This document shows positions 19,404 through 40,900 of a DNA stretch of 64,000 nucleotides, piece after piece. Source of the DNA: a virus; the IMG/VR virus record IMGVR_UViG_3300023116_000009, positions 122,088 to 186,087 of that record; one strand, 5' to 3'. Position numbers and translations under genes: made by a program. Positions within the stretch are counted from its first letter, which is position 1. Each line of letters begins with the position of its first letter. The notes under the pieces are model-generated. The model ran no database searches, was not told where the DNA came from, and saw nothing but the letters and a program-made list of their open reading frames with translations.

Positions 19404-20185
19404 AATCCATACCTTCCTTTTAAGTTATTGAACATCAGAGTATTTTCATCACCAGAAAGTGCCCTATTATAAATGTAAACACTTCCTAAAAATCCAGGGC
19501 ATGGACCATTGCCACCTAATGATCCATCGTTTTGAGTGCCCCCAAATACTCTGAATCCACTAGTGCTATAATTTCCATAAGATAGTCCTAATCCTGGTGT
19601 TGTTGGATTAGCGCCACCACCTTCTGTTTGTGGTCCAGTAATAATCTGAGTTTCATTTCTGTAGGCAGTTGCAATTCCAGTTGCTTGATCATAAGTATAT
19701 GTGTACATATTCCATCCATCTGCTGGAACACCTACAGGAGCAAAGTTTCCATTGATATATCTTCTATATCTATCTGTGTGAGTTGTAGAATAATTTAATA
19801 CATTACTCTGTTCTAATACACATGTAAGGGGAGATCCTGCAGTTCCACCCCCAGCGGTGCAAATAAGTCCTCTCCAATTATTATTAGCATTAACACTTAA
19901 TGGAAGATTATTTATATTCATCCATAATAGAAAAGTAATAGAACCAGTATATAATCTATCGTTAATCGGGGAAATTAGATGAGATGTTCCTTGCCCAGTA
20001 GAATTGGTATCACTTTGTACATAGTTAAATCCTACGGGTCCAGTTGCCGCAGTAAAATTATTAACTTGCCAATTTCCTACAGAACCCCTACTTGGGGCAA
20101 GTGAATTAATACCCACCCCATCATTTGATTCATATACATCTACGATCCCATCGTAGATGATATTGGGACCGTATTTAGTTGTCAT
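19400..20185 (-). CDS. LamG-like (concanavalin-type) lectin protein, copy 1
   Basis: This encodes a 261-residue protein with the same overall plan as its neighbour. The start MTTKYGPNIIYDGIVDVYES parallels the neighbour's MTAYHGPHIPLRELKILLDA. The middle has LYTGSITFLLWMNINNLPLS, then WNMYTYTYDQATGIATAYRN, and the end is GFLGSVYIYNRALSGDENTL, a classic LamG closing strand. Two cysteines are present near residues 110-120. It is coupled to the 3508-aa fibre by an ATGA overlap and to the next lectin likewise. The likely role is carbohydrate contact at the virion surface; no catalytic residues are apparent. Confidence 0.75.
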   Translation of the reverse strand: MTTKYGPNIIYDGIVDVYESNDGVGINSLAPSRGSVGNWQVNNFTAATGPVGFNYVQSDTNSTGQGTSHLISPINDRLYTGSITFLLWMNINNLPLSVNANNNWRGLICTAGGGTAGSPLTCVLEQSNVLNYSTTHTDRYRRYINGNFAPVGVPADGWNMYTYTYDQATGIATAYRNETQIITGPQTEGGGANPTTPGLGLSYGNYSTSGFRVFGGTQNDGSLGGNGPCPGFLGSVYIYNRALSGDENTLMFNNLKGRYGL

Positions 20186-23100
20186 TCCTGAACCTCCTTG
20201 ATTTCCATTTCTACTTCCATCTTAGGAACATCCTTACGTTCTGCCTGTACAAAGTAGAACGCCGCCCCGCCACCAGTCGTGATTGTATTATCAGCGACAT
20301 CAATTACCCAGCGATTGCCAGAGTCACCAATTGCAGTCAGCTGAACTGTAATGGTGTCTTCATCAACAAGTTGTAACCAGTAATCTGGTAATGTAATTAC
20401 ACCATCTGTGACACGTCCTCTGACGTATACACCATGCTCAGGACCCTCAAGTGAACCATGCTGAAGTTTGTAATTTTCCTTAGTTGGGTGATCGATAAGG
20501 AAGGACTTGCTCTTAGCAGAGAAAGTACCATTGATTGTCAGAGTATGTGTTGGAACATTAAGTCCAGTGTACATACCAACTCTTGATGTTGTTACATCAG
20601 CAGCATCAGATCTTTGATACATGCTGAATACATTATCACCAGCATGATTGGTGATTCTGAGAATATCGTTTGGAGTGATATTAGCATCATTCCAAATGGT
20701 CCACTTAACTTGACCTTGACGTGCAAGACCCATACCAATGTCTCTGTCAAACGCATTATCAATAGTCAAGAGTGATGGATAACCAGCATCAGTATCAAAG
20801 TTCTTAAAGAGAATACCTGCTGCTGAGGCAGCAGTAGCATAACCTCCACCACCAGTTGCGTTAACAGTCAGTTTAGAACCAATGTTTGCAGCAGTGACGC
20901 CGATACCGACATTACCGTTATAGCGGATTCTAACTCTCTCATAGAAATCACTATTGCGTACACCAAATACTAAGTCAGTTTGATAATCACCTGCCTTAAC
21001 TGCAGCAATTCGTGCAGAGGAGATTCTTGCGCCATCAGCCGCTCTACCTGCTTGTAACCACAGACCAGCAAACGTTGAAGAGTTTCCTGCCTCAGTATTG
21101 TATACTGCAAGTTCTTGTGGATATGGTTCATATGCATATTGACCACTAATACTTGCAGACCATGCGGTTGAATCAGTAACTTGCTGCTTCAACTGACCAG
21201 TTAGAGTACCACCAGAGAGTGGTAAGTTCTCAGATGCAGAACCAATCAGATCACCATATGCATTTCTAAATCCAATGTCACCATTTGAATCTCTAATTAC
21301 ACCCTTACTATTTGCTGCTGTATCATATGCAGCGTTGACTGTATCAATACCAACACCAAAGGTAATGTTACCTGCGTGCCAGATGTTATTACCATTAACT
21401 TGAGCGGCATTTGCTTGGAAGTTAATAGTACCAGTTCCAACAGTAGATGTACCGCCAGATGCAAGAATTCTTACATCGTAACCATTAAGATTAGGATCAC
21501 CATTTGGAAGTGTGAATGCATTACCGCTGGTTAAGAATCTAATCTGACCACTAGTTGCCTCTGCTTCATTACCTAAAGTAATTACTGGATTACCAGAACC
21601 ATCTGCATAGAGTTTGTGCTTATCAATAGAATAATCATCTACAGAAGTAATACCAAAGTCAGCAATTGGGAAGTAAGTTGCTGGTTCTACTGCAGTACCA
21701 AACTTGGTAACAGTTTCATTAAGAACACCAGAGATAAGTTCTGCTTGTACTTTTGTATGTGACAGTTGAGATGCTCTTGACCAAAATACTCCATTTTGAG
21801 TTCCTTCATCTGGACCATGAATTGGAATAATGTTTGGTCTTGGACTTACATATGTAAACCCAACGCTACCATCAGTTGCAGCACCAGTTGTATGTGATGG
21901 ACCATTGCCAGATGCTGAAGTCGTACCAGCAGTGGTTACCTCATAAAGATTTTGGTTAGCAAGTACTAAAGTACCAACACCCAGAACTAAGTTATTGTCA
22001 TATACAGTTGGAGTTCTGATGAAATCAACTGTAGTATAAATGTTGTTATTATACTGAACTTCTCTGCTAGGTGGAATACCTCTAGATACAAATCTGAAGT
22101 CAGCAGTACCATTAGTTACTGTACCACTTGTGTGATTCAGAGAAACGGTTCCAGATTCACCAGCAGTAGTTACCTCATAGAGGTATACATCTTCACCCAG
22201 AGTACCAGCAATGATAGTATATACTAATTGACCTTGTGAGTATAATGTTTCTGGATCAAAGTCAACTGCAGTTACATTGCTATAACCAAACTCCCAAACA
22301 TAATCTGCTTCGTATTCTGGAGTAACTTTTAGGACATTGACTGTACCTTGGTTGACGTTATTGTCAGTGTAGAGGTTTACTGTGAAGAATGTATCACCAT
22401 TTAAGTTTGCACTTGATCCACCAGTATCAAGCATTTGGAAGTCATCATATGTAAACAGGAGATTATCTACAGTGAATTCATAGATAACACCAGTATTGAT
22501 TTGAACTTGAGGATCAAATCTAGTAATTCTCAGAGAATCAGTAATTGATTTTGGTGAAAGATTGCCTGGCATCCTTCTGTTGCTCAGGTAACCATAATTC
22601 ATATTTGTGCCAGATCTTAAGAATGTATCTGACTTACCTCTTAAGAATGCAGCATCGAGAGTTGATCCAACACCATCATTACCACTGGACCATAACTTAT
22701 ACCAAGAACTCCACTGGTTTGCGTTAACCGATGCGAGAGTTGCAGTCAGTTCAGCAGAAAGAGATCCTGCATAATCAAATACTGCAGTACCACTAGTTGC
22801 TTGTGCAGAACCACTAGTATGAGTTGGTTCTTGAGTTCCTGCAGTACCAGCGGTAACTACATCATACAATCTACCAAATCCAATGGTTTCAGCAACAAAT
22901 ACCTTATCACCAATATTATAATTAGCACCTGAAGACCAGCGAATGTAACCAGAGTCATATTGACGACCATTATCAACACCAAAGATGTTTTGTGGAAGTA
23001 CACATGTAAATGTTCCTGGTGCATTACCAGTTTCATTATATCCATAACCAGTATCAACAATGGTTACATTAGTAATTTGCCCATTGCTTCCAACGGTAAT

Positions 23101-26100
23101 ATCTGCCTTAAGACCATGACCTTCACCACCACCAAGTTCTACTGATTTGTATTGACCAGGAGTGTAACCGTTACCTGCTTTAGAAATTGCAATGGATCCA
23201 ACAAAGTTTCCACCATGACCACGAATCCATTGGTTGTTATTATCGGTAAATGCAAACTGAGTAATTGCATAACCATCAAATGTAGTTCCAGTACCAATAC
23301 CTCTTCTAGTTGTGTACTTGGTATGGTCAGTTCCGCCGTCTAACAAACCATCATCGGCATTCTTCTTCCATGCTGCTGATGTTCCAAGTGGTGCGTTAGA
23401 TGGTGCAAGAGTTTGCTGTCTAACGTCAGAAATTGTAAGATTCAGTGCAGTACCTGATTGACCCGTAATGTCAATGATATATTCGCCAGAAAGGTAGTCA
23501 GGACCAAGAGTACCAGCATCAATGTTAGATGCGTCTGTATAGAACTCTTTATCTTCACCATCGAGTTGGTCAGCATCCAGACCAGACCCTGCACCCTCTT
23601 TGAGTGTCAATGCACCATCAGGTCCGAAATTCCATTGCTCTTTATAGAATCTCCAAACACCAAGGTTACTAAAGTCATCACCAGCAATGGTTAAGTTGTC
23701 ACCACGTTTGATGTCAATTGTAATATCATTAAAGATCTTAGATGTCTCTGCAACCTTTGCTTCCAGATCTGCATCATCATCTCCATTTGGATTTGTGATT
23801 GATGCAGGTAGTGTTGAAATAGAGAAGTCAGCGTTATAATTTAGACCTCCTTCTACAACAGCAACTCTTGAAATTACACCATCTGCAATAGTTGCTGTAG
23901 CAGCAGCACTGTTACCAACACCAGTGAATTCGATGTTAGGTGCAGAAGTGAATCCACTACCACCATCAAGAATTCTAATCTCGGTAACTGAACCATTAGT
24001 CGTAACTGCTTTTGCAACAACGTTAACCAGAACAGCACCATTATTATCTTTAAAAATGACCGTTGGTGGTTCTTCAGCAAATACAACTGGAGTAACGTTT
24101 TCGTCAACAACAAGGCGATAACCAGTACCACCGTTGGTGACTGCAATACTCTTAACAGCACCATCACTAACTGTGAAGTCGGCAAGGAATCCTTCTCCTG
24201 CTCCACCAACTACTTGTTGAGATTGTAAAGTTCCAGTTCCTCCACCCAAAGTAGAAATACCATAATTTTCACCACCGTCGATAATTTCAACAGATCCAAT
24301 ATATGTACTTCTTTGGTTTGAAGAACTGATAACAAGTGGTGTCTCTGCAGAATTCTTTCTGATAGAAGAAACAACAGGAACGAACTTAGAATCACCTCTC
24401 AGGTAAGTATTAGAACTTGCTGGATAATTAGAAGTAATGTTTGCTAATCTTGCTGGATTAATGACACCAGTGGTAATAGAACCAGCGTCAATATTAGTAG
24501 AAGTCAACTGAACCCAGTTTGAATCAAGTTGACCAGAAGTATTAACTACATTAGTAATTGCTACAGTTTGAGGTGTACCACTAAAATCTTGGATATCATC
24601 TGCAACTGCAAATTTAATATTACCAATGAGAATGAGTTCTAATCTACTTCTAATGACTAAAGATGCGTTTGCGCCAGCACCGCCAGTTCCAGTATTATCA
24701 AATATAATTGAAGGTGCAGTTGTATAACCAGAACCTCTATTCGTTACCGTGATAACAGAAACACGATTATTATCAATTTGTGCTGTGGCAGTTGCCGCAG
24801 TTCCAGCATACTCAAAGGTTACTGTTCCATCAGTAGCAGTGCCTGATGTATGAATTGGACCACCACCAGAAGAACTTGAAGTGCCAGCAACTGTTACTGT
24901 ATACAGATTTCCGTTGGCAGCAATTTGAGCACCAGCACTATAACCAGTGCTATTTGCATACTGAATACCAATTGTAACTGTTGGTGCTGTGGTATAACCA
25001 GATCCACCACTAATAACACTTACATTTGGTGATACTTCGCCATGAATATAGTAATTAACTGTACCTTGTCCATTAGAGGGAGTACCACTTACAACATCTC
25101 CATTTGAGAATGTATAAGTTGGGTCTGGAGTAAACTCAAGAATTTGAGCATAGGTATCATTGTTCAGAATGTAGGAGATATTGTTTGGTGCCAACTGAAT
25201 TGCAATGTCACCTGCAAGTGCTCCTTCCAGTGCAAGACGTGCTGCCAGATCTGCAACAGTAAAGACATTAAATGGTCTCAGTGCTGGAATCTGGTCAATA
25301 TTAATTCTACCAGTAGAATCTAACTGTACAAGGTTACCAGGAGATGGTGTTGTGCCATATGGTTTGTTCTTGTAGTTACCATAGTTATTGGTAATATATT
25401 CTCTAATTGATGCTTGAGTTGCCAGAATTCTATCACTATTCAGTTCGGTAGAACCAAGGGTAATATCACCAAGTTTCTCATCTCCAGAGAAACCAACAAT
25501 TTCAATATCACCACCCTTAATCTTCAGGAACGCAACTTCTTCAATTTCAACAGTACCACCAAAGGTGATGTTACCAGTTCTGTTTTCGATGTTAGCAAAG
25601 TAACCAACTTTAAAGTTACCGAGTTCGTCAGTACCTGATGCATAAACACGACCGTTAAGTTGAGATACCTGTTCGTAATCAGCGGTATCTTCAGATCCTC
25701 TCTTACCACCATTTTGTGGCAGAGCGTTATAGTCAACACCAGAACCAGAGAATTCCCACGTGTGAGAAGACGAGTTACAAATAGATGGTCTGTGGAGATT
25801 AATTGGGTGATTAATCAGTTTATAACGAGTTGAGTTATCAAGGATAAACTCACCATCATCTCTTTCTGCACCAGATGGAAGTGGAGTTGTAACTGTTGGG
25901 TTATCAAGAATTTCATCAATCAGAGTATTCAGGGTATCGATTGCTGCCTGAACGTTAGCACAATCAGAAGTGCTATACAGATCAGAAGCAGTTCCTACTT
26001 CACCCGCAGGTGAGGATACATCATGAATTACTGCAAGATCTACGTATGGTTTTACAGTTGTATACTGTGCAACATAGTATCCAGCAGTTGTTTCTGCTCC

Positions 26101-29100
26101 AGTTAGAGTAGTTCCAAACTCTTTAAGTTGGTTATTAATTGCTAACTTACAGAGAACCGTTGCCTGATCAAATACTGCTTTTGTTCCTGCAGCATAACCA
26201 GTAATGTGTGCAATGACACTATTTTCAATATATGATTTACCAGCATCCCAAGTAAATGCATTACCGTCATCTCTGATGTCATCAGCAATTGCCTGAACAA
26301 TCAGTTCAGTATCTCTGATGCACTTAGCATAATTTGCTTGGAATGAATATACATTGCTATACAGAACAGTATAGAATGCTTCTTCTGCAATGTACTTCTT
26401 ATTATTCTCAATAAGAACCGCAGCATCAGTGTATCTGTTTTCATTACCAATCAAACGCATTTGAGCATCTGCTTGTACTAATGCATCAGTATTGGTTGCT
26501 TGAATAACAGAATCAATAAAGTATTCTGGATTATTATTGCCTGATCTCAGAACGGGTTTGATGCCATCAACTTTAATAATATAGTGCTCTCTTGGTTCTG
26601 AATTCAATTGACTAATATCAAATGTTGGAGTACCAATGAGGTCAAAAGTAACATCATCAACTTTACCAACATCAAAGTTGTAAGGGTCTACTCTAAATCC
26701 AGTTGCTCTCAGTGAGTAAATACCAAAGTTAGATGCTGAGTTGGTCAGGGATGCATATCCACCACTTTCAACAACACAACCATCATAAGTAAAGATACAG
26801 AAGACCGAAACCAACTGAGTGTATCCATCGTTGATGACTCGATAACCAGTGCCGCCAAATGAGATGATCGTGAACGCAGCAGCAACCATCGACTTACCTT
26901 GTGGTGGCAGTCCAGGTCTGATAACGTTAGGATCAGCAACCTTAGCACCGTCAATCTCACATCCAGATCCACCAAGGAACGAGATTACTGAAGAGTTAAA
27001 GATGTATGGAGACGCTTCAATAATAGGAAGATCTAAGAAGTTTCTTGCAAAAGTAACAAACTTAGTTCCATTATCCTCAAAAGATTTTTCTGGTAAAGTT
27101 CTATCTGGTGCAGTTCCTCCAGAAATTACAGTATCAATAATACCGAAGTAAGTATAAATTGCAGAGGTTACATTTGCACAAACATAATCTCTATTTGCTT
27201 CATAAGTATTAGAGATTGTTGTATCTCTAAATGTAGTTTGTGTTGAAGTTCCTGCATTTACTAAGTTTGTAGAATAGTAGAACTTGGATGATGCTGTTGC
27301 AAACGAAACGAATGCATCATAACTAGAACCAAGAACCGTGAAGTTAATACCAGCACTATTTGCAACTTCAAACCATCTACGTCCATCGTAAGAGTTTAAA
27401 ATGCCATCATCAGTACTGATCCAGAACTGGTAACCATCATGATAAACTCTATTATTATTCTTACCTGCAGCAGTTCTTGTAATTCCAGTAAGGTTTCCAG
27501 GAGTTGCTGTAGTACCAATTGCTTGGTCTAAAATTGCAAACAGGTTTTGAATTGCAGTTGCTACGTTAGCACAATATGGACTGTTACTATCAATAGTGAC
27601 ATTGTTATCAAATGACTGAAGAAGACCTGAAGCATAATTCTGAACGTCAGATACTGCAAATGCTTCATTACGCATTGCTGCAATAGCAAAGGATTCTGCA
27701 TATCCGAATACTTCTGCAGATTCATCTTCTTCGCCAGAGACATGTGCTCCAGTTACATAAAGATTAGCAGCATCATATACTCTATCATTTCCACCATACT
27801 GTAAGTTAAGGACCATTGCTTCCAAGAAGTCCATAACATCATCTTTACATGCCTGATTGCCTGTAGGGATGCTAAATCCTTGATTGTTATCAAGCATCTT
27901 ATTTACAGACATCTCAGCAATTATTTGCTTGTTTGCTAAGATGAGGTCTGCAGCATCTCCGTATCTATCTGCTACAAACTCTGCGGCAATTCCAAGTTTC
28001 CAAGTTTGACCGTCTGTTGATGTATAAATTAAATCTCCTGAAGCAGCAATGAGAATATCCTCGTTTGCTGTAATTGAAGAGAATGTAGTTGCGGATGTAG
28101 TTCTTTCTGTCCATACAACGCCATCAGGTGAAGTGTATGCACTACCACCACTACCTACAGCAACAAACTGACTATTCTTATAATCCCAAATTACATCTTT
28201 TACAAGGTGTTGACCAGATCCATTAACAGGTACAAAAGAACCTCTTGCAGTCCATTCCTGACCGTTATCAGAAGAGAACCACTGAGGACCACCAAATCCT
28301 ACCCATTGCTCATCATCATCCCAAGCAATAGTACTAATTGATTGGGAACTGAGGTTGCCGCCTTGTGCAATTGCCCAATTTACGCCATTGCTGGAGGTAA
28401 TAATATATGCACCATCAGCACCACCACGACCACCAACAACAACAATTGTTTGTCCATTCCAAATAATATCATTCCATTGAGTTCCTGCGGTAATAGGACT
28501 TGTTTGTTGAGTCCAGGTAATACCGTCAGGAGAAGTTGCGATTAAACCAGCAGAACCAACGGCAATAAATTGTGTATTTACCCACTGTACTGCGTAGATA
28601 GTTGCGCCAATGGAATTTGCAATTGCAGTTAAGTTTGAACCATTCAGATATTGAATTCTATTTCTAATTGCAAGAACTGCTAGTTCTCTTGCTTGTTCAA
28701 ATGCATATCTGGTTTCTTCTAACTGACCATTAATATGAATTAAAGCATTGCCTTGGTAATAGTTATTTGCTGCTTCTAAGGTTGCAGCATTACCACCGTG
28801 AGACAAGTCATATTGAACAGCATTCAGAACGTGCTTAATATCTGTTTTGCACTGATCTTCATTTGGGATGATTAATGAAGAATATTTTGCCTTGGTTCTG
28901 ATTACTGCTTCATCTGCAATAAACTCTTTGTTCCTTCTAATAAGATCAGCACCATCTAAGAATCTGTGACCTTGCTTTTCGGACTCTTCAAATTTAAATG
29001 GTGAGTTCAGCAAACTGAACTTAACGTAGTTATCAGAGGAAGTTACAACAGCACCATATACAGTCAGAGAGAATGGTACTGCTTCCGATCCTAACTGTGA

Positions 29101-30708
29101 TGGAGTATCTTTGAATACTGCAAATACTTTACTAAATCCGTCTGATGACTCTACACGCTTAGTAACATATTGACGACCATTAAATCTATTGAGATCTCCA
29201 CCTGCACCAGAAGAGGGAAGATCTGAAAATTCTACCCATTGACCTTCTTCAAACGTATGATACTGCTGAGTTCTAAAGAATAACCAATCTGGATATGCAC
29301 TATCAAAATAGCAATTCTCAATCAAGTAATTAGGATGCTCAGTTACGTGCTCAGTAACTTCACCCTCTGGTCTTAATGATTTAATATTTGTTGCAACAAA
29401 TTGATACTGAGGAATGCTAGTATTAAAAGTAAATTCTGCTGTTCCATTTAAAGCAGCACCACTAGAGTGTGATGGTTCATTGGTTCCAGAAGTACCTGCA
29501 ACAGTAATGTCATATAACGTATTATCGATGAATACTTGATCACCTAAGTCATATGCAGTTTCTGGAGTCCATCTAATTGCACCTACTGCTGGTACAGGAG
29601 TATATTTAAAAGTATCACCTTGTTCTAATGCACCTCTTACAGTACCAACAGTGATGAATCCTTTGTCAACACTAGTTTGATCAGCAACATTTAAACTATC
29701 TGGTAATCCAAAACTTACCTCAGTAATGATTGCTCTACCGCCAGTTGCAACACCAACGATCTCATCACCAACTACAAAGACAGGATCACTAGTGCTTGCA
29801 CGGTCAAACTGAACCTGGAAAATACCTTCACCAAAAATTTGATAACCAATTGGGAATTCTCTACCAAATTGACCACCAAGAGTTTTATCATAATACATTC
29901 TTTGCTTATCGTCAAAGACGTAAGCATAATCCCAAGTACCAACAGGTTTTTCAAAACCATCAACTACTTCGATCTTGTCACGGAATGTGACACCGATCAT
30001 GTAGTTTTCATTCTGGTTTTTGAACATGTGCTTGTTCGGATTCTGCGGGCGAATAATGCAGAGACGAATGTTATCGCCCACAACCGAACATTTATCAGGA
30101 ATGGAGATTGGGTTATCTTCTAAGTAATCTCCACCTGCAACAATAAGGGTTTCCTTATCAGGAGTAGTACCAGCAATCTGTGCTGCCTTTTTAATCGTTC
30201 TTACTGGTTTCGTAGCAGAGCGACCATCAAAGTCATCGTTACCAATCTGCTCAGAAACATAAACACGACCACCAACGTCGTTAGTTGCAATGTTATAAAC
30301 AAAGTTTGTTGTTGCAACTTTGTTCGTATCATCATCAAAAGCAGGAGTTTCAGAAGTTGGGAAGAAGGTATCTCCAGTTTCTGGATCAACAAATGACTGA
30401 AGGTTAGGTGCTTTTAAATTAAGTTTTGGATTGACGATTGTGTCAATATCCAAGTTGTTAATTTTTGCAGTATCAGAAATGATAGAAGTGGTCGTTCTAA
30501 TCTGACCTTCAACATCAAGTTCATATTGTGGCGTTAAAGTATTAATACCAACACGAACCAGTTTGTCAACATCATCTGACAATTGAGAAAATAATGCCGA
30601 TTTTTCATCAGCACCACCACCCAATCTCAAATTCAAACTTGTATCGTTTTTGATCTTCAGAGAATTCGACTTAAGAATCTCCTTATCAGCATTAAATTCT
30701 AACGCCAT
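20182..30708 (-). CDS. Giant tail fibre protein, 3508 aa
   Basis: This is a giant modular fibre. Modules in order: N-terminal attachment region (1-140); pectate-lyase-like beta-helix (about 150-270; RVYVSEQIGNDDFDGRSATK); a first helical module (582-683); an Asp-box propeller (about 690-905); second and third helical modules (915-1014, 1425-1526) with CANV segments after them; a beta shaft with GSGY repeats (about 1900-2560); PTHTSG-type modules (about 380, 1946, 2600, 2820, 2920); and a C-terminal cap (about 3400-3508; HPTKENYKLQHGSLEGPEHG). The start resembles giant fibres of T4-like cyanophages. It is probably a long tail fibre or whisker-like receptor-binding protein. It overlaps the first LamG gene by 4 bases. 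An ACTAAATA octamer lies 24 bases upstream. Confidence 0.88.
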   Translation of the reverse strand: MALEFNADKEILKSNSLKIKNDTSLNLRLGGGADEKSALFSQLSDDVDKLVRVGINTLTPQYELDVEGQIRTTTSIISDTAKINNLDIDTIVNPKLNLKAPNLQSFVDPETGDTFFPTSETPAFDDDTNKVATTNFVYNIATNDVGGRVYVSEQIGNDDFDGRSATKPVRTIKKAAQIAGTTPDKETLIVAGGDYLEDNPISIPDKCSVVGDNIRLCIIRPQNPNKHMFKNQNENYMIGVTFRDKIEVVDGFEKPVGTWDYAYVFDDKQRMYYDKTLGGQFGREFPIGYQIFGEGIFQVQFDRASTSDPVFVVGDEIVGVATGGRAIITEVSFGLPDSLNVADQTSVDKGFITVGTVRGALEQGDTFKYTPVPAVGAIRWTPETAYDLGDQVFIDNTLYDITVAGTSGTNEPSHSSGAALNGTAEFTFNTSIPQYQFVATNIKSLRPEGEVTEHVTEHPNYLIENCYFDSAYPDWLFFRTQQYHTFEEGQWVEFSDLPSSGAGGDLNRFNGRQYVTKRVESSDGFSKVFAVFKDTPSQLGSEAVPFSLTVYGAVVTSSDNYVKFSLLNSPFKFEESEKQGHRFLDGADLIRRNKEFIADEAVIRTKAKYSSLIIPNEDQCKTDIKHVLNAVQYDLSHGGNAATLEAANNYYQGNALIHINGQLEETRYAFEQARELAVLAIRNRIQYLNGSNLTAIANSIGATIYAVQWVNTQFIAVGSAGLIATSPDGITWTQQTSPITAGTQWNDIIWNGQTIVVVGGRGGADGAYIITSSNGVNWAIAQGGNLSSQSISTIAWDDDEQWVGFGGPQWFSSDNGQEWTARGSFVPVNGSGQHLVKDVIWDYKNSQFVAVGSGGSAYTSPDGVVWTERTTSATTFSSITANEDILIAASGDLIYTSTDGQTWKLGIAAEFVADRYGDAADLILANKQIIAEMSVNKMLDNNQGFSIPTGNQACKDDVMDFLEAMVLNLQYGGNDRVYDAANLYVTGAHVSGEEDESAEVFGYAESFAIAAMRNEAFAVSDVQNYASGLLQSFDNNVTIDSNSPYCANVATAIQNLFAILDQAIGTTATPGNLTGITRTAAGKNNNRVYHDGYQFWISTDDGILNSYDGRRWFEVANSAGINFTVLGSSYDAFVSFATASSKFYYSTNLVNAGTSTQTTFRDTTISNTYEANRDYVCANVTSAIYTYFGIIDTVISGGTAPDRTLPEKSFEDNGTKFVTFARNFLDLPIIEASPYIFNSSVISFLGGSGCEIDGAKVADPNVIRPGLPPQGKSMVAAAFTIISFGGTGYRVINDGYTQLVSVFCIFTYDGCVVESGGYASLTNSASNFGIYSLRATGFRVDPYNFDVGKVDDVTFDLIGTPTFDISQLNSEPREHYIIKVDGIKPVLRSGNNNPEYFIDSVIQATNTDALVQADAQMRLIGNENRYTDAAVLIENNKKYIAEEAFYTVLYSNVYSFQANYAKCIRDTELIVQAIADDIRDDGNAFTWDAGKSYIENSVIAHITGYAAGTKAVFDQATVLCKLAINNQLKEFGTTLTGAETTAGYYVAQYTTVKPYVDLAVIHDVSSPAGEVGTASDLYSTSDCANVQAAIDTLNTLIDEILDNPTVTTPLPSGAERDDGEFILDNSTRYKLINHPINLHRPSICNSSSHTWEFSGSGVDYNALPQNGGKRGSEDTADYEQVSQLNGRVYASGTDELGNFKVGYFANIENRTGNITFGGTVEIEEVAFLKIKGGDIEIVGFSGDEKLGDITLGSTELNSDRILATQASIREYITNNYGNYKNKPYGTTPSPGNLVQLDSTGRINIDQIPALRPFNVFTVADLAARLALEGALAGDIAIQLAPNNISYILNNDTYAQILEFTPDPTYTFSNGDVVSGTPSNGQGTVNYYIHGEVSPNVSVISGGSGYTTAPTVTIGIQYANSTGYSAGAQIAANGNLYTVTVAGTSSSSGGGPIHTSGTATDGTVTFEYAGTAATATAQIDNNRVSVITVTNRGSGYTTAPSIIFDNTGTGGAGANASLVIRSRLELILIGNIKFAVADDIQDFSGTPQTVAITNVVNTSGQLDSNWVQLTSTNIDAGSITTGVINPARLANITSNYPASSNTYLRGDSKFVPVVSSIRKNSAETPLVISSSNQRSTYIGSVEIIDGGENYGISTLGGGTGTLQSQQVVGGAGEGFLADFTVSDGAVKSIAVTNGGTGYRLVVDENVTPVVFAEEPPTVIFKDNNGAVLVNVVAKAVTTNGSVTEIRILDGGSGFTSAPNIEFTGVGNSAAATATIADGVISRVAVVEGGLNYNADFSISTLPASITNPNGDDDADLEAKVAETSKIFNDITIDIKRGDNLTIAGDDFSNLGVWRFYKEQWNFGPDGALTLKEGAGSGLDADQLDGEDKEFYTDASNIDAGTLGPDYLSGEYIIDITGQSGTALNLTISDVRQQTLAPSNAPLGTSAAWKKNADDGLLDGGTDHTKYTTRRGIGTGTTFDGYAITQFAFTDNNNQWIRGHGGNFVGSIAISKAGNGYTPGQYKSVELGGGEGHGLKADITVGSNGQITNVTIVDTGYGYNETGNAPGTFTCVLPQNIFGVDNGRQYDSGYIRWSSGANYNIGDKVFVAETIGFGRLYDVVTAGTAGTQEPTHTSGSAQATSGTAVFDYAGSLSAELTATLASVNANQWSSWYKLWSSGNDGVGSTLDAAFLRGKSDTFLRSGTNMNYGYLSNRRMPGNLSPKSITDSLRITRFDPQVQINTGVIYEFTVDNLLFTYDDFQMLDTGGSSANLNGDTFFTVNLYTDNNVNQGTVNVLKVTPEYEADYVWEFGYSNVTAVDFDPETLYSQGQLVYTIIAGTLGEDVYLYEVTTAGESGTVSLNHTSGTVTNGTADFRFVSRGIPPSREVQYNNNIYTTVDFIRTPTVYDNNLVLGVGTLVLANQNLYEVTTAGTTSASGNGPSHTTGAATDGSVGFTYVSPRPNIIPIHGPDEGTQNGVFWSRASQLSHTKVQAELISGVLNETVTKFGTAVEPATYFPIADFGITSVDDYSIDKHKLYADGSGNPVITLGNEAEATSGQIRFLTSGNAFTLPNGDPNLNGYDVRILASGGTSTVGTGTINFQANAAQVNGNNIWHAGNITFGVGIDTVNAAYDTAANSKGVIRDSNGDIGFRNAYGDLIGSASENLPLSGGTLTGQLKQQVTDSTAWSASISGQYAYEPYPQELAVYNTEAGNSSTFAGLWLQAGRAADGARISSARIAAVKAGDYQTDLVFGVRNSDFYERVRIRYNGNVGIGVTAANIGSKLTVNATGGGGYATAASAAGILFKNFDTDAGYPSLLTIDNAFDRDIGMGLARQGQVKWTIWNDANITPNDILRITNHAGDNVFSMYQRSDAADVTTSRVGMYTGLNVPTHTLTINGTFSAKSKSFLIDHPTKENYKLQHGSLEGPEHGVYVRGRVTDGVITLPDYWLQLVDEDTITVQLTAIGDSGNRWVIDVADNTITTGGGAAFYFVQAERKDVPKMEVEMEIKEVQE
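26131..26436 (-). repeat. Helical C-x2-D module, copy 3 (residues 1425-1526)
   Basis: This is the third copy of a module of about 103 residues in the 3508-aa fibre: RYTDAAVLIENNKKYIAEEA, then C1463-x2-D with GN ending 20 residues after the Cys, then DAGKSYIENSVIAHITG. A CANV segment follows at residue 1583. Predicted to be mainly helical, in contrast to the beta-rich surroundings. Confidence 0.75.
27667..27966 (-). repeat. Helical C-x2-D module, copy 2 (residues 915-1014)
   Basis: This is the second copy: RYGDAADLILANKQIIAEMS, Cys954 with Asp three residues later, and GGN ending 20 residues after the Cys, then YDAANLYVTGAHVSGEEDES. It is three residues shorter than copies 1 and 3 in its last part. 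CANV segments follow at residues 1046 and 1177. Confidence 0.75.
27990..28640 (-). repeat. Asp-box (BNR-like) propeller segment in giant fibre
   Basis: Residues about 690-905 of the 3508-aa fibre contain at least five blade-like units, each ending in an Asp-box core: SPDGITW, SSNGVNW, SSDNGQEW, SPDGVVW and STDGQTW. Such units build sialidase-type beta-propellers. I see no sialidase catalytic Arg/Asp/Tyr arrangement, so a binding rather than cleaving role is more likely. Confidence 0.7.
28660..28965 (-). repeat. Helical C-x2-D module, copy 1 (residues 582-683)
   Basis: This is the first copy: RFLDGADLIRRNKEFIADEA, Cys620 with Asp three residues later, and GGN ending 20 residues after the Cys, then ANNYYQGNALIHINGQLEET. 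The last part has exactly the same length as in copy 3. No CANV segment is seen before the propeller. Confidence 0.75.
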
Positions 30709-31921: not shown

Positions 31922-34900
31922 TTATCTCTTAACAGTGTGGGAAACGATCTTAATATTGTATGTAGTTCTGTTCTCAATAGCAGAGGCAAAACTTACAGTT
32001 TCATCTGCAGATGCAGAAATGTTACTGGTTGTAGAAGCACTGGTAACAAAGATATCATGTAAATCACCATTGCCATCTGCTCTAGTTCCAATAAAGATTA
32101 CATCCAAATCACCAGCATTGAGTAGATTGCCATCATAATTAACTGGTTGATCTAATGCTGCATAAGTTCTGGATCTGGAGGTATAACTTAAAGTATCACC
32201 ATCAGCAATGATAACACCTTGAATATTTTGCTCTCCATCATTAGTCGAGGAGTAATCCAACGCTACGTTGAACAAGAATTGCCCATCTGCAGGATTGCTT
32301 GCTACACTGAAGATTTCAGAATCAATACCAGTAGAAACTACTAATCCAACTTCTGACAGATCACTCAGATCATAATATCTTGCTTGAATTTGAGAAGTTG
32401 AAGTATCATAGTACATCTTCAATACTCTGGTCGTTCCAACTACTGCCCACTGAACACCATTACCAGAACCGATACCAACAGTGGTTACTGCAGTTAATGT
32501 TGAACCATTAACAGAATACTTTCTAACTACTCCTGAAGTAAAGTTTACATATAAGTAAGTGCCGTCAGTAAATGCATCTTGCAGTCCAGTACCACCAAGT
32601 AATAGAGATGGGGTTGACCAAGATACGCTATTAGTAGAACCGCCAGTGACAGTTCCGTTTACTTGATATACTCCAGAAGTAGTATGATAAACAATAATCA
32701 TTCTTCCATTAACACTCAAGATTCTGCATGTTCTTGCATCTCTACCACCATTTAAGCTATAAATCAGAATACTATCAGAGGTAAATGTGCCAAGCGATCC
32801 AAATGTGATATTACTATTATTAGGGTCTACGTCCCCAACAATATAATCTCCACTGTTTGACGCCCATACGATTCTATTTGTTGCAGAATCAAATGCCATA
32901 GAAGCATGATCAGAATTGCCAGTAGCAGTTAACGGAATTTGTGTGCCAAAAACAACACCATTATCACTTACTGTACCAACTCTAAATCCACCAGTAGCGA
33001 AATTGGCATTGTCATTGGCATAAATTACAACTCTATCTGCATCGGTATCAATAACTGATGCAATATTTTTAGTAAAGAATGTTGAAGACGTAATATCTGC
33101 AGATCTTTCTGCTGCAACAGGAATGTAAGTATCTGTTGCACTTCCAAGTTCGGTAACTCTTACTTGAACATTTGAACCTGACAGATCTGCTTCAATGTCA
33201 GCAAGAACTACATCAGTATACAATTTATTACTTTCAGTATAAATGATATCTTCACCATTACCTCTGATTAAGTAAGAAACTTCAGAGTATTGCTTTCTTG
33301 GATATGCATCTGGAATTGGGAACTGCTCTTCAACCTCAACCATAAATTTACCTGACCATGCTTCTGCCCATGGGAACATAGTTGCAGAAACAATGTTACC
33401 AGCAGCAGCATCTAAAGTAGATGTTTGAGTAAAGATCTTAGTGTTTGCAAGTTCCAGTTTTTGAAGACCTGCATCAAGAACAGTTAAGTAATTGTCTGCA
33501 GTAGAAGAGAATCCTCTATTGATTTGCAGAGCACCACCATTGGTTAACTTAAGAAGTTGATAAGAATCTGAAGATGCTGGTTCAAATCCAAATGTCAATG
33601 CGTCTCTATCAGTTTTAATGATTTCGTCAGTTGCACTAGAAGTAATCTCTAATTGATTAGTGCTAATAGTGAACTTGCCATTAACATTTAAGTTGACATT
33701 ATCAACATTGGCGTTCAAATTATCATATCTGTAAGACCAATATTCAAGATTATCAACAGTTCCTGATGTGTGGGTTGGAGCAACAGTTCCTGTAGTGTGA
33801 TCAGCAGTAATCCTATAAAGATTATCACCTGAGTAAATATATTGCTGAACAGTCAGAACATCATCAAGATCTGCTGTAAACTGAGTTACATCAGTTTCTG
33901 GAGTCCATTCAATACTGTTTCCTTCAGCGTTAGAATTAATAGTGTTGAGAGTATCAAGATTTAACTCAGTTTGACTTACTCTTAATGTTTGAGTTCCGTC
34001 ATTAAAGAACCAAACATTATTATCATCATTACCAGGAGATCTCTCACCGATTACAAAAGTATTTCCATCAACGTCTCTTACACCACCGAGAGAAACAAAG
34101 TAATTTCCATTGTATCCTTCAAATTGATTTCTGTCAGTATTATATCTTACAGAACCTTGAAGAGGACCACCAGGGCGATTTGCATCAGTACCGACAGGAA
34201 GTGCAAGTGCTCCAGTTCCACTAATTACAACTTGAGAATTTGCCTCAGCACTTAATGTTAAATCGCCAGCAGTTGTTGAAATTGTATTATTGTTGAGTAA
34301 CAGTGTAGTTGCAATTTCAACGCCATCAGGAGATGCAACGAGTTTCTTAGCAGTGACTACACCATCTACAGCATCAAACTGAATATTATTAAATTCAGCA
34401 AGAGAATTGACTGTCAGGGAGAATCCTGCAGGGAAGTATCCATTATGAGCAATAGTTGCAGTTCCATTTGTTACAGAACTTGCAATGGATGATACTGTAA
34501 AGTTAGCGCCAGAACCATTAGTCAATGATTGGACAACAATTGTAACCGTGGTTGGATCATCTACAGGATCTCCACCCTCTTCTGGATCGCCACCGCCACC
34601 GCCACCAAACAGAGAACCATCAAATTCAATCAGTTCACCAACTTGATAACCAATACCATTGGAAAGAATTACTGCAGATGAAATATTTCCAGTAGCATCT
34701 GATGTGAATCTAATTAAAATATTTGCACCTGTTCCACTAGTTCCAGTTTGATTCAAATCGTAAGTTTGTGTGTCACCATATGCACCATTATCACCACCGC
34801 TTGCAATAGCAATTGTTGCAGCACCCGTATTGATATAGTCATTATCCAGAGTAAATGCATCCCCGACTTGGAATAAATCACCAGAGAGATTGCCACTTGG

Positions 34901-37900
34901 ACTAATAGAAGTTACTGTACCCGCACCATTGGTGGTAATGTCTACAAGAAGACCAGTTCCTTCACCAGTGGTTGCTTCACATTGAACGCCTTCAATTGTT
35001 GCACCTGAAGGATAACCAGAACCACCACTAACAGTGTTGATACCAGAAACGCCATCTTGTCCAAATGATGGAACTACAGTTCCAGTGGTTCCAGCGCCAG
35101 TTACTTCATATGCGTACTCACCAGCATAAAATTCTTGTCCAACACTTACTGCTGCTTCTGTTGGGAATAGTGTAAACCCAAGTGCTGCAGCGTCATAGTA
35201 ACTTGATGGAAGATCAAGAACGTCATCTACAGAATAACCAGCACCGAGGTCAACAACATTTACATATGAGACCGAATTCAATCTCTTTACAGTATATTCT
35301 ACTGGAACTGCTGGAGCAGAAATTGTTGTTAACAGACCTGAAGTTGGATCAGTATACTGCATGTCTGTGTAGTTAACTGTGAGAACATCTCCAATTAAAT
35401 ACCCAGAACCTGGAGAAGTAATGTTAAATTCAGTAACAACTCCACCTTCAACCAAAATCCTTGCTTGTGCATTAGAACCTGTTCCTGTAGCACCGATATT
35501 ATTAACTCTAATAGCGAACCCAGATCCAGTAGACACAGTTTGTGCTGAGAATGCTGCACCTGAACCATATGTTACTGATGCAATATTAATCTGTCCAACC
35601 ATACTTGCATGGTTACCACAAATATAATAATAAGTTCCAGGAACTGTTAAAGAAGTATCAAAACTTACAGTGCCACTTTCTGCACCATTATTAGTTGCTG
35701 GGAGAACATATGCAGCGTTAAATCCATTAGTTTGTGCATCTAATTGAGATACCAAATAGAATGGGTGACCAGCAGCACTTACTGAGAATGAAATAGTATC
35801 TCCAAGGTTTACATTGATACTTGGATTGCTTGCACTGGTGTATGTGGTGTTTCTATCATCACCACTAATTACATAGTTAGTGCTACCATTGTTTGTAACT
35901 GTATATGTGAATGTCAGGTTTTCATACAGGTCTGAATCTGCAACAGTAAAGGTATCAGAGGTTGTATATCCACCACCACCTTGATTAACAGTTGCAGACG
36001 TTACAACTCCACCAGACACTACAACGTTAGCAGTAGCACCAGATCCAGAACCTAACGTGTTTACTAACGCAACATCACTATAAGTACCATCTGGATAACC
36101 AGTTCCTGCTAAAGAAACTCCAAGAGTTCCAGAAAGTTTACTTCCTCCAACATTAGCAGTATCAACACCAAGAAGATCCGATACTGCATATCCAGAACCT
36201 CTAGAGTTAATAACAACAGAAGTTACTTGACCATTTTCAATAGTAAAGTCGCCTGTTGCTGAACTTCCAGTTCCTGCAGTAAGAGCAACGTTGAAATAAG
36301 TTCCATCAACATACCCACTACCTGGGGTGAGTGTTCCAAATACAGTGATTGCACCAGATGCAACACTTACATACTGAACTGGAACGTTTAAATATTCCTC
36401 ATTATAATAACCAGATCCTGGTTGTGTAATATTACCAGTAAACGCAACTGTTACATTTGCAGTAAAGTCAGCGCCAGTACCACCTCTGAAAAGAACATTA
36501 TTAGTAGTGCCAATTGTATATCCTCTACCTGGAGTAATTGTATATTCATCAATTGCTTTATTGATTAAATCTACTGGTTTGAAGAAACTAATCTGCTGAG
36601 TAGTTTGCTTCATGATAGGACCATTATATCCTACCGTAGTAATTTCATTAAGATTGCTCTTATAGAAACCAAGTTTTTCGTCGCTATCAAAAGTAATTGA
36701 TGGAGCAATCTCTGTGCCATCATTAACTAAAATTCTACCATCAAATCTACTATCACCAGTTACAGTAAATTTCTCATCAAATGTAGATGAGATGTCATCA
36801 GGTCCTGGATCAGTTCCGATGCTTACAACCGATCCAGCATCAGTTGCTAAGAATACGTGATTATAAATTTTAGCGGTGCTATTAACTTCAAATGTATAAT
36901 CTTCAATGACTACTGGGTCTGTGGGTCCTAAGATACTAACTTTATTATTAGTAGCATCAATTTGGAGCAGATCGGTGTCAAATGCTACACTTGCACCAAT
37001 CTGTGATGGATTATTTGGATCTCCAACTACGGTCAATCTACCGTTTGTACCAAGGTCTCCTTGGACAGTAAGGTTGCCAGAAGTTCCAATGCCACCAGAA
37101 GCAGTTAATGTACCACTAACTGTAAGATTCTGAGCACTAACTGTTGATAAAGTTGTTGTTCCAAGTGCTGAGAAATTTTCATTGACAGTAACGTTGGTAT
37201 TGAATGTACCACCTTCTGCGGTAATATTACCTGTTTTTGTCAGCGAAAGGAAGTTTTCTAATAATGCTGTACCAATAGCAATGGATCCATTTTGACCATA
37301 CTCGGTATCTGCAGTAGTGTCAATGGAGTTGCCCATTCCAGAGTGAATGGTGCAATAGTAGTATAGAGTTCCTGGAGTATCACCAGTTACAATAATATAA
37401 GCACCGTTGTTACCATTTAATGGTCCAGATAACGTAGTATATGCTGTTCCACCATTATGAATACCATCATTAGTTTCTGAGATTGTAAATGGATGATCAG
37501 CGTATGTTGCCGTATATGTTGCGTCTGGAGTGACTGTAAATCTGTAAAGTGTATCCTTATTTAAAGTTAAAGCAGGCGCTTCTACATATCCACTACCAGT
37601 GTTAATCCAGTAGGCATTACCACCACCGCCAGATTTGGGGCGAATCTGAACATTGTATGTTACGGTTGTACCAATACCAACCAGGGTATCATTGGAAGCA
37701 AGTTCAAAGTAAGGTTGAACTAATTCACCTGATAAATATCCTTCACCTGCAAGTGCATCATCTGTTCCTTCATCAACAATATTGGCACTGCTCAGGAATT
37801 GAATATTGCTAAATTCAAATACAAATCCATTTCCACCACCAGGAACAGTTGCAGTAATTGCATCTCCAATAGTATATCCAGTTCCACTCCAAGTTCCAGA

Positions 37901-40900
37901 TGGAGTAACAGAAGTTACAGTATATGAATTTGACGGTACAGTATATGCAAATCCAGCACCACCACTAGTAAATTGATTTCCTTCTTCATCGAAGTAAATC
38001 AAATTCGAATTGTTTATTGTCAGAGTATCACCAGCAGTATACCCACTATCGCCATCATCACTAATATTGATCTCAGTAACTACTCCACCGCTAACAGTAA
38101 CAGTTGCTACTGCTCCTGTTCCTGTACCTCCATTTAAAGGTACTGTTGCATAAATGTTATCAGTGTATCCAGAACCACCAGTAATTGTACCACCTGAAAT
38201 ACCTTTTACCGTTACTGTACCAGTTCCTCCAGTACCAGTTCCTGTTTGTTGGTTTTGACCTTGAACATTTGTAAATGAAAGGTTATTATAAACTCCTGCA
38301 ATATAACCAGAACCTGCTTGAGTTACTTGACCAGCGAATGCAGTTACTGTTACATCAACTCTAAGACCAGTACCCGATCCTCCAGTAACTGGAATATTGG
38401 TATATGTTCCAGGAAGGTATCCAATACCTGGAGTACCAACAGAAACTGTTTCTGGAATTGAAGATGAGATATTAATATCAGTAAGAGATCTTACTTCACC
38501 AGGAGCAATTCTTAATACAGATCCACCATTAGAAACTAAATCATAGTATCCATCTCCAAGATCAATTGGTTTTCTAATACCAGTATCTTGATCACCATCA
38601 AATGCCAAAGAAAGGCGAGTGCTTCCAGAAGTAAAGGTTTCCAGATTAACTCTTTGATTCAGATTAATCTCATTACCAGTAAATGGTGTCAGGTTAATAT
38701 TACCTGAAGTTGTAGAAATCGTATTACCGAAGAAGGTAAACGCACCGACCTCAATGGACGTTGGAAGGATCGTGGTGGTGTCTGAACCAGCAGATACGAG
38801 CAATTGGTCAAAACTAGTTCCAGCGCCTGCTCCAGCGCCTCCAGACCCAGCAAAGGAAAGGGTTCCCTTCTCTTGGTCAACCAGGAAAAGATCGCCTACA
38901 CGGAAGTCGCCACTCTGGTCAACAGAGGTAAAGAATACACGACCATTATTTTGTTCAATGACTTCGTTTGACTGTACAACCAAACTAACGTCGTTATTAT
39001 CATCCTTACCGACGCCAATGTATCCAAAGTTATGACTGATAAGACGTAAACTTACACCCTGACCATTTGCACTAGCACCACGCTCACCATAAACGTTTGC
39101 AGATGCAATTGAGCGAAGTTCTGCACCAAACTTGGTATAATCTGCAAGGGTTACAAATGTTGCAGTTCCGCCAGCAGTGGTTCTAACATCTTGAGCAACA
39201 ATACTATCATCAACAAATACAGCAGCACCATTTGTGCCCTCCATATGGAGCAGCAGAGCAGTATCATTATCTGCTAAAAACTGAACTGTGGTTGGTGTAA
39301 ATGCTGCGTTATATCTTGAAGAACCCTTAGTTACTCTAACTTCATCAATATAACCATTCAATCCAGCACTTCCATCATATGCTGCACCAATTGTTAAACC
39401 TCTTGTTGGGAAGTCATTACCGTCAGTGTAACTAGAACCAACTTGAGTGCCGTCTACGAATAACTTACTTACGCCAGAAGTTCTTGAGAGTGCAATATGG
39501 TGCCAAGTAGATGCAGTTAATGCAGCAGAACCTGTGATTACAGCAGCGCCATTAACATAATATACAAGATCTGATCCAGAAATATTAACTACTGGTGAAA
39601 TTTCTGTTGGTGATGCTGATCTAAAGTCAAAGATAGTTTTAGCACCAGAAGTATTGTTGAGGTAGATAAATGCTTCTAATGTAAATTCGCCAGTACTAAA
39701 GTTGAAATCTGGATCTGATGGTACTGTTAATCGATCATCAGTTCCATCAAATGCTGCAGAAGTTGAACCAAGTTTAACTTGAGTTGTGCTGGTTACTACA
39801 TTGTCAACTGCAGAAACATTCTTACCTGTTGTTTCGTCAGTTGCAATGATACGACCTTCACCTTTTCCATCCAAATATACATAAGTACCATCATTTTCAT
39901 CAATGGTTCCATAACCACTGGTCTTTAAATAGTTTAAGTTACCAGCACTTGCAGTGCCAGCAAAGATACCATCAATGACAAAACTATTGCCTGTCGTTAC
40001 TGATGTAATTTTATGGAATTCTGTTACACCACTCTGAGCGCCAGAAGTAGTATTGATGTAGACAAGATCCCCTTGTGCCAGTCCATGACTGGATGAGGTG
40101 ATCGTCATTGTTAAATTATCATCTGCACCACTAGTTGTATATGCAGCAGTTACTTGAGATACGCCTGCTTCAATTAAACCAACTTGGTTACCAGATCCAG
40201 CAGTAAAGTCGCCAGATTCCCCTTGGAGATTCAGTCGAGTTCTCGCTACTCCACCAAGACCAGTACCACCGTCTGGACTTTCTCCTAAAATACCATCTTG
40301 TGCATAATATGTGAATGAGTTTAACCATTCACAACGAGCACCATTTTTAAGATATAAACCAACTGAATTAGGTACAACAAATGTACACTCATTGAAAAGA
40401 ATGGATGCTTCAATAGTGCTTGAATTGGCAACAGAACCATCAATTAAGGCACCTCTACCAGCATCACCTTGATTATAACCTCTAGGATCGGATGCAGAAG
40501 TTACAGAACCTTTTGTGAGGACACTGACTCTCTCAATATAAGGTCTTCTTTCAGTAAGAGTAAAGTTTGATGCTAATCTGAAACCATATCCAGTATCATT
40601 AGAAGCATTATAGTAGAAGTTTCTAATGGTAATGTCTTCAATATTAGCATTACCGAGAAGAAGGAAGCAGTCAAGATCTTGAGTGGCAACGGTTGGTTGA
40701 ATAAAAACAGATTTAATTCCACGTCCCTTAATAGAAACATCAACTGGTACGGTTAATGGAAACTCCTCAGTGTAAGTACCACCTTCAACTACAATAGTAT
40801 CACCCGCTTGAGCAAAGTTCTCAAGGGCATACTTGAGTGAAGCAAATGCGGTGAACTCTGTTGCACCCCATGCGTTTGCCCCTGTCGTTGACCCATGGCG

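Follow-up and report, generated by a model that had tools for sequence, protein, structure and literature searches.

The window, the whole 64,000-nucleotide stretch of DNA analyzed here, comes from a 186-kb phage genome (IMG/VR record IMGVR_UViG_3300023116_000009; coordinates on the entire genome carry the prefix G000) and encompasses a gene for a 3508-aa tail fiber protein (Table 1). A preliminary description of this protein had pointed out three segments (residues 582-683, 915-1014 and 1425-1526) that share a C-x2-D-x15-G-N motif. The positions of the segments were confirmed, and the motif was found at residues 620, 954 and 1463; a scan of eleven large window ORFs revealed no further occurrence. 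In pairwise sequence comparisons with BLASTP, the likeness among the three copies is above chance (copies 1 and 2, 36% over 104 aa, E 1.5e-17; copies 1 and 3, 32% over 114 aa, E 6.8e-17; copies 2 and 3, 30% over 105 aa, E 1.3e-8).

The module is longer than originally delineated. Instead of ending at A-I-x-N or A-M-R-N, the domain extends for approximately 50-75 further residues, up to a C-terminal helix that is opened by a second cysteine (C1046 in copy 2 and C1583 in copy 3). An iterated profile search in relatives yielded a full unit of about 155 positions, with the last helix starting at the second cysteine (C-A-N-V...). Copy 1 has no C-terminal part in place, and an orphan end piece sits after copy 2; possibly, copy 1 was interrupted by the insertion of copy 2 together with S-x-D/N-G-x2-W beta repeats, so that the orphan piece would be the far end of copy 1. 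A fourth full module was identified in the same genome, within a 1872-aa structural protein (G000:43499-43915). The S-x-D/N-G-x2-W repeats themselves resemble blades of a BNR or beta-propeller: five of them lie between copies 1 and 2 (fiber residues 726-903; window ~27990-28540, minus strand), and one more is located at residue 1106.

Table 1. Features of the module-bearing fiber gene and of the bilin lyase-like gene (window coordinates unless prefixed)
Feature	Position	Strand	Basis
3508-aa tail fiber gene, module carrier	20182..30708	-	best PHROG 5342 'tail fiber protein'
Module copy 1 (residues 575-700), N-terminal three quarters of the predicted phycobiliprotein-like domain	28609..28986	-	family HMM positions 1-119
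Putative chromophore-site motif C-x2-D, copy 1 (Cys620, Asp623)	28840..28851	-	motif scan
Module copy 2 (residues 908-1067), complete predicted phycobiliprotein-like domain	27508..27987	-	AF2, Foldseek and VIA-align
Putative chromophore-site motif C-x2-D, copy 2 (Cys954, Asp957)	27838..27849	-	profile column of Cys82/Asp85 of beta-phycocyanin (HMMER, HHalign)
Second cysteine of copy 2 (Cys1046), directly before the last helix, at the place of beta-phycocyanin Cys153	27571..27573	-	HHalign onto G-D-C of phycobiliproteins; model
Orphan C-terminal piece (residues 1141-1197, Cys1177)	27118..27288	-	family HMM positions 102-154
Module copy 3 (residues 1420-1604), complete predicted phycobiliprotein-like domain (Cys1463, Asp1466, second Cys1583)	25897..26451	-	AF2 and PDB fold matches
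Putative chromophore-site motif C-x-R-D, copy 3 (Cys1463, Arg1465, Asp1466)	26311..26322	-	motif scan
CpeT-like ORF, 141 aa	G000:81866-82291 (L161:1366-1791)	-	PF06206, two pieces

The segments had not been recognized as a named domain. They are assigned to the phycobiliprotein family (PF00502) by profile searches as well as by comparisons between profiles and between folds, and the profile search that had been proposed as a check thus led to a well-described domain. By these comparisons, the modules are identified as divergent phycobiliprotein domains that are predicted to adopt a globin-like fold and most resemble the phycoerythrin and phycocyanin beta subunits. When a profile built from 51 copies was run against the whole PDB, the best 60 matches were all phycobiliproteins (best E 2.3e-8), and the module Cys and Asp were aligned with Cys82 and Asp85. 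The profile was needed because a single-sequence phmmer search of the PDB with copy 2 returned no match. The HHalign comparison of the phage profile with 80 cyanobacterial phycobiliproteins gave 95.7% (E 9e-9), compared to at most 0.42% for the controls (a reversed profile and 20 column shuffles), and the two module cysteines were aligned with the pair of cysteines that bind bilin in the beta subunit. The spacing is common to both families as well: in the module, the first Gly of G-G-N follows the Cys at +18, the distance that separates Cys82 from Gly100. Searched against four cyanobacterial genomes at E<=10, the phage profile hit 11 places, each of them a phycobiliprotein ORF.

Searches with the existing family model pointed in the same direction. 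The PF00502 match of the fiber, in copy 1, has an E of 0.0041 and does not reach the Pfam cut-off; in a six-frame search of the phage's own genome at E<=10, PF00502 matched two places only, copy 1 (E 0.0038) and copy 3 (E 0.0129). Window copies 1 and 3 scored 15.6-17.5 bits, under the cut-off of 22.2, and copy 2 was not among the matches listed. Among the 51 copies, 24 matched PF00502 at E<1, and one, from S-WAM2, was above the gathering score (27.7 vs 22.2 bits). Pfam would flag this S-WAM2 copy and, therefore, the likeness may sit unremarked in databases.

The preliminary description of a helical repeated module inside a mostly beta fiber is borne out by the AlphaFold2 models of copies 2 and 3, both of which are almost entirely helical and have the predicted globin-like phycobiliprotein fold. 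The model of copy 2, obtained from an alignment of 107 window and metagenome sequences, has a pLDDT of 90.3 and a pTM of 0.88, and its last helix (140-157, model numbering) follows Cys139. The best 50 PDB matches of this model in Foldseek and VIA-align were all phycobiliproteins, with a VIA-align Z of 18.3 (rmsd 2.8 over 149 residues) to one beta-phycoerythrin and of 17.7 (rmsd 2.1 over 140 residues) to another, above the level of up to 14 that is quoted for chance helical matches. For copy 3 (pLDDT 86.7, pTM 0.85), the best 50 PDB matches were likewise all phycobiliproteins, with a best Z of 15.9 and weaker Foldseek E-values (best 2.4e-3). Copy 3 is 26% identical to copy 2, and the two models are not fully independent because most of the alignments are common to both.

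Among phage records, the module appears confined to cyanophages. In tblastn searches with two different copies, 316 and 349 of the 50,697 phage records matched, all named cyanophages except for one "Marine virus". A profile search of 33 genomes detected the module in 24, with 3-24 matches each; it was not found in T4, pelagiphage HTVC008M, podoviruses P-SSP7 and Syn5, siphovirus P-SS2, and myoviruses P-SSM2, S-TIM5, S-CRM01 and Ma-LMM01. Successive copies often lie close together, with 103 of the 175 pairs within 40 residues of each other. The best explanation of these observations is that the modules are repeated in tail fiber and giant baseplate proteins of T4-like cyanophages and, given this restriction, the phage of the window is probably a cyanophage-like relative of T4. 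Bacterial genome contigs scanned with one conserved copy contained no relative, and neither did plasmids; the donor can thus be traced only by its remote homology with phycobiliproteins of cells. Presumably, the module was acquired from cyanobacteria. Several loci, namely, L027 (S-WAM2), L028, L020, L025 and L030, additionally contain pieces of about 40 residues that correspond to the first two module helices only (HMM 1-39), alone or in tandem before full modules.

We counted conservation in 181 distinct phage copies, among them a degenerate one that lacks the Cys (P-RSM6, L028:11697-12071). The first Cys, which occupies the Cys82/84 chromophore site, is present in all three window copies and is kept in 180 of the 181, the degenerate copy being the sole exception. 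The Asp at +3 (Asp85/87), which in phycobiliproteins holds the bilin nitrogens, is kept in 99%, and the Gly100 counterpart in 84%. Only Asn13 (100%), Cys41, Asp44 and Tyr71 (98%) are near-invariant positions of the family model. The second Cys, at the place of Cys153, is found in 121 of the 144 copies in which that column is aligned, and window copies 2 and 3 have it; the 23 copies without it all retain the first Cys.

Other positions have been lost. The Arg at +2 (Arg84/86), which holds a bilin propionate and is universal in the 80 cyanobacterial phycobiliproteins, is R in 60 of the 181 phage copies and D in 90; of the three copies in the window, copy 3 alone carries R. No conserved position of the phage family corresponds to Arg91 or Tyr95. 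Also lost are a stretch of approximately six residues that precedes the Cys and includes two Arg, and the N-terminal X-Y hairpin with Asp13; the model matches no part of the PDB chains before residue 25. Asp13 and Arg91 are residues of the alpha-beta interface of phycobiliproteins. Given that the Arg at +2 is mostly lost, along with Arg91 and the Arg-containing stretch before the Cys, the bilin pocket appears to be altered. Altogether, the residue pattern implies that the assembly features are gone, the thioether site is retained and the pocket is changed, which is best explained by a module that is no longer built for assembly into phycobilisomes. We also considered an alpha-beta trimer disc formed by tandem copies within a trimeric fiber; a canonical disc is disfavored by the missing X-Y hairpin and Arg91.

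The phage of the window encodes a putative T-type bilin lyase (CpeT/CpcT, PF06206), identified by sequence matches of 43.7 and 28.9 bits (cut-off 21) to positions 2-76 and 107-181, and a 228-aa ferredoxin-dependent bilin reductase; a heme oxygenase (PF01126) was not found in the phage record. In the CpeT-like ORF, the central part of the lyase barrel seems to be shortened, and similar short forms are present in P-HM1, P-HM2, MED4-213 and others. Across the genome set, cpeT was detected in 19 of the 24 module-bearing genomes compared to none of the 9 without the module (Fisher 5e-5, for genomes that are related and not independent). The remaining five module-bearing genomes have no detectable cpeT; a weak CpeT could escape detection, as in P-SSM7. 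In S-PM2, S-RIM44, S-RIM32, S-WAM2 and S-H9-2, cpeT ends 0.7-1.8 kb upstream of the module-bearing fiber gene, on the same strand; in the phage of the window, the two genes are far apart. A 2OG-Fe(II) oxygenase gene, with a product that could act on the fiber, is located between cpeT and the fiber gene in L266 (S-PM2), L023, L025 and L020.

T-type lyases serve the Cys153 site (PMC2327270; PMC10452541), which is the site of the second Cys of the module. The S-type lyase (PF09367), which serves the first site, is absent from all 33 genomes and was accordingly discarded as a phage-encoded partner of the first Cys. In phages with a T-type but without an S-type lyase, host enzymes would therefore have to serve this residue. 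S-type lyases have been reported in other cyanophages (PMC10665884), and the module-bearing S-CREM1 may belong to that cluster. P-SSM2, with a bilin reductase and no module, is a counter-example to a strict link, so that the bilin genes of phages must serve some further purpose.

Cyanophages carry genes for bilin synthesis and lyases, even those that infect Prochlorococcus, which lacks phycobilisomes. The role of phage pcyA and pebS has been termed a mystery, and that of phage cpeT is considered unresolved (PMC3037559); no phage-encoded acceptor for the cyanophage bilin enzymes is named in the open-access literature that we searched. The fiber, a virion protein in which phycobiliprotein domains have retained their attachment cysteines, is a candidate bilin acceptor that apparently had not been named before. 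We consider the chances about even that the module still binds bilin and is a virus-adapted chromoprotein. During infection, a linear tetrapyrrole (bilin), made by the host or with the help of phage bilin reductases, would be attached to the conserved Cys (the Cys82/84 site) and, in many copies, to the Cys153 site as well, which is served by T-type lyases such as CpcT; the mature virion would then bear bilins on its fibers. Homology, the predicted fold, the position and conservation of the attachment residues, the restriction to cyanophages, and the association and linkage with cpeT are the observations from which we infer attachment; in the open-access literature searched, there is no report of bilin on any virion. 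Further points that speak against this reading are the altered pocket, the lack of an S-type lyase in the 33 genomes, the short CpeT-like protein with its match in two pieces, the bilin reductase of the module-free P-SSM2, and the five module-bearing genomes in which cpeT was not detected.

A serious possibility, although one to which we give less than an even chance, is that the fold was exapted without the pigment, as a rigid, helical element of the fiber that acts as a bead or spacer, with the Cys and Asp kept for structural reasons such as core packing or helix capping. The loss of the assembly residues, of Arg91 and, in two thirds of the copies, of the Arg at +2 is compatible with such a role, as are the absence of an S-type lyase in the 33 phage genomes and the occurrence of 3 to 24 copies per genome, often in tandem, as would be expected of spacers. 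However, two of the four near-invariant positions are chromophore ligands, a buried thiol without a reaction partner is seldom kept at 99%, and both the linkage and the co-occurrence with cpeT would be left unexplained. The earlier suggestion of a spacer, hinge or trimerization unit was a guess, with nothing specific in its favor. Even without the pigment, a virus fiber would have taken over a photosynthetic antenna fold as one of its repeated structural units.

If, on the contrary, the fibers are pigmented, this could provide a physical basis for the light-dependent adsorption of some cyanophages. In this narrower form of the bilin-binding hypothesis, which we regard as unlikely, bilins covalently bound to the fiber modules by phage and host bilin enzymes would sense light and gate adsorption by switching the fiber between binding and non-binding states; with the same low likelihood, this would explain why some cyanophages fail to adsorb in the dark. 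S-PM2, reportedly one of the phages in the work on light-dependent adsorption of cyanomyoviruses, has 13 module matches. The light-dependent adsorption reported for several marine cyanomyoviruses (PMC2984593) is in line with such gating, and so are two phages compared elsewhere (PMC7112961), of which P-HM2, with 6 module matches, is unable to adsorb in the dark, whereas P-SSP7, with none, is able to do so. These two phages are unrelated, however, and come from different families, so that any gene difference would fit and the comparison is too thin to bear this claim. Furthermore, phycobiliproteins proper are antennae rather than switches, and a review attributes the light requirement to host photosynthesis (PMC9229316).

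The invariant Cys might instead serve a disulfide or metal site in the fiber, given that most full copies (121 of the 144) have two cysteines and that these proteins act outside the cell. We view this as quite improbable: the corresponding sites of the homologous fold bind separate bilins and are distant from each other, and three equal cysteines around a threefold axis cannot all pair. A simple Cys1-Cys2 disulfide was rejected for the family as a whole because the first Cys persists in the 23 copies without the second and, therefore, is not kept for such a bond. That short helical segments have become alike by chance or convergence, as the identity to phycobiliproteins of just 13-20% might suggest, is hardly credible given the E of 2.3e-8 against the whole PDB, the one family that fills the matches listed, the negative controls, and the Z of 18.3 with 149 aligned residues and both cysteines in register.

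Compared to the beta subunits of phycoerythrin and phycocyanin (PF00502), the phage module has the same predicted fold over ~140-149 residues, Cys82, Asp85, the Cys-to-Gly100 spacing and a second Cys at the Cys153 place. Unlike these subunits, it is repeated inside a giant virion protein, is a putative rather than an established bilin carrier, has no X-Y hairpin, Arg91, Tyr95 or Arg-bearing stretch before the Cys, retains the Arg at +2 in one third of the copies, and contains insertions before the last helix. Fusion of a phycobiliprotein domain into a large multidomain protein is reminiscent of ApcE (L-CM), the multidomain phycobiliprotein core linker; ApcE, however, is a cellular protein inside the phycobilisome, whereas the phage module is in a virion fiber. 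The cyanophage bilin genes cpeT, pebS, pcyA and ho1 occur in the same viruses and involve the same chromophore chemistry, but their products, unlike the module, are soluble enzymes that act in the infected cell. In the subset of the open-access literature that we searched, no virion protein is described as having a phycobiliprotein domain.

Another large virion protein encoded in the window, a baseplate-wedge-like ORF of 3083 aa (31922-41173), also contains domains of note. A plastocyanin/azurin domain (PF00127; 27 bits, above the cut-off) is located at residues 1783-1864 (window 35582-35827, minus strand), with what appears from the sequence to be a full set of type-1 copper ligands (G-H-P-F ... 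C-G-N-H-A-S-M). A second C-x2-H-x2-M (C-T-I-H-S-G-M) is present at residue 1274, with no Pfam match. Residues 476-615 of the same ORF (window 38890-39750, minus strand, rounded coordinates) comprise a LamG/concanavalin-like domain (PF13385, E 3e-19).
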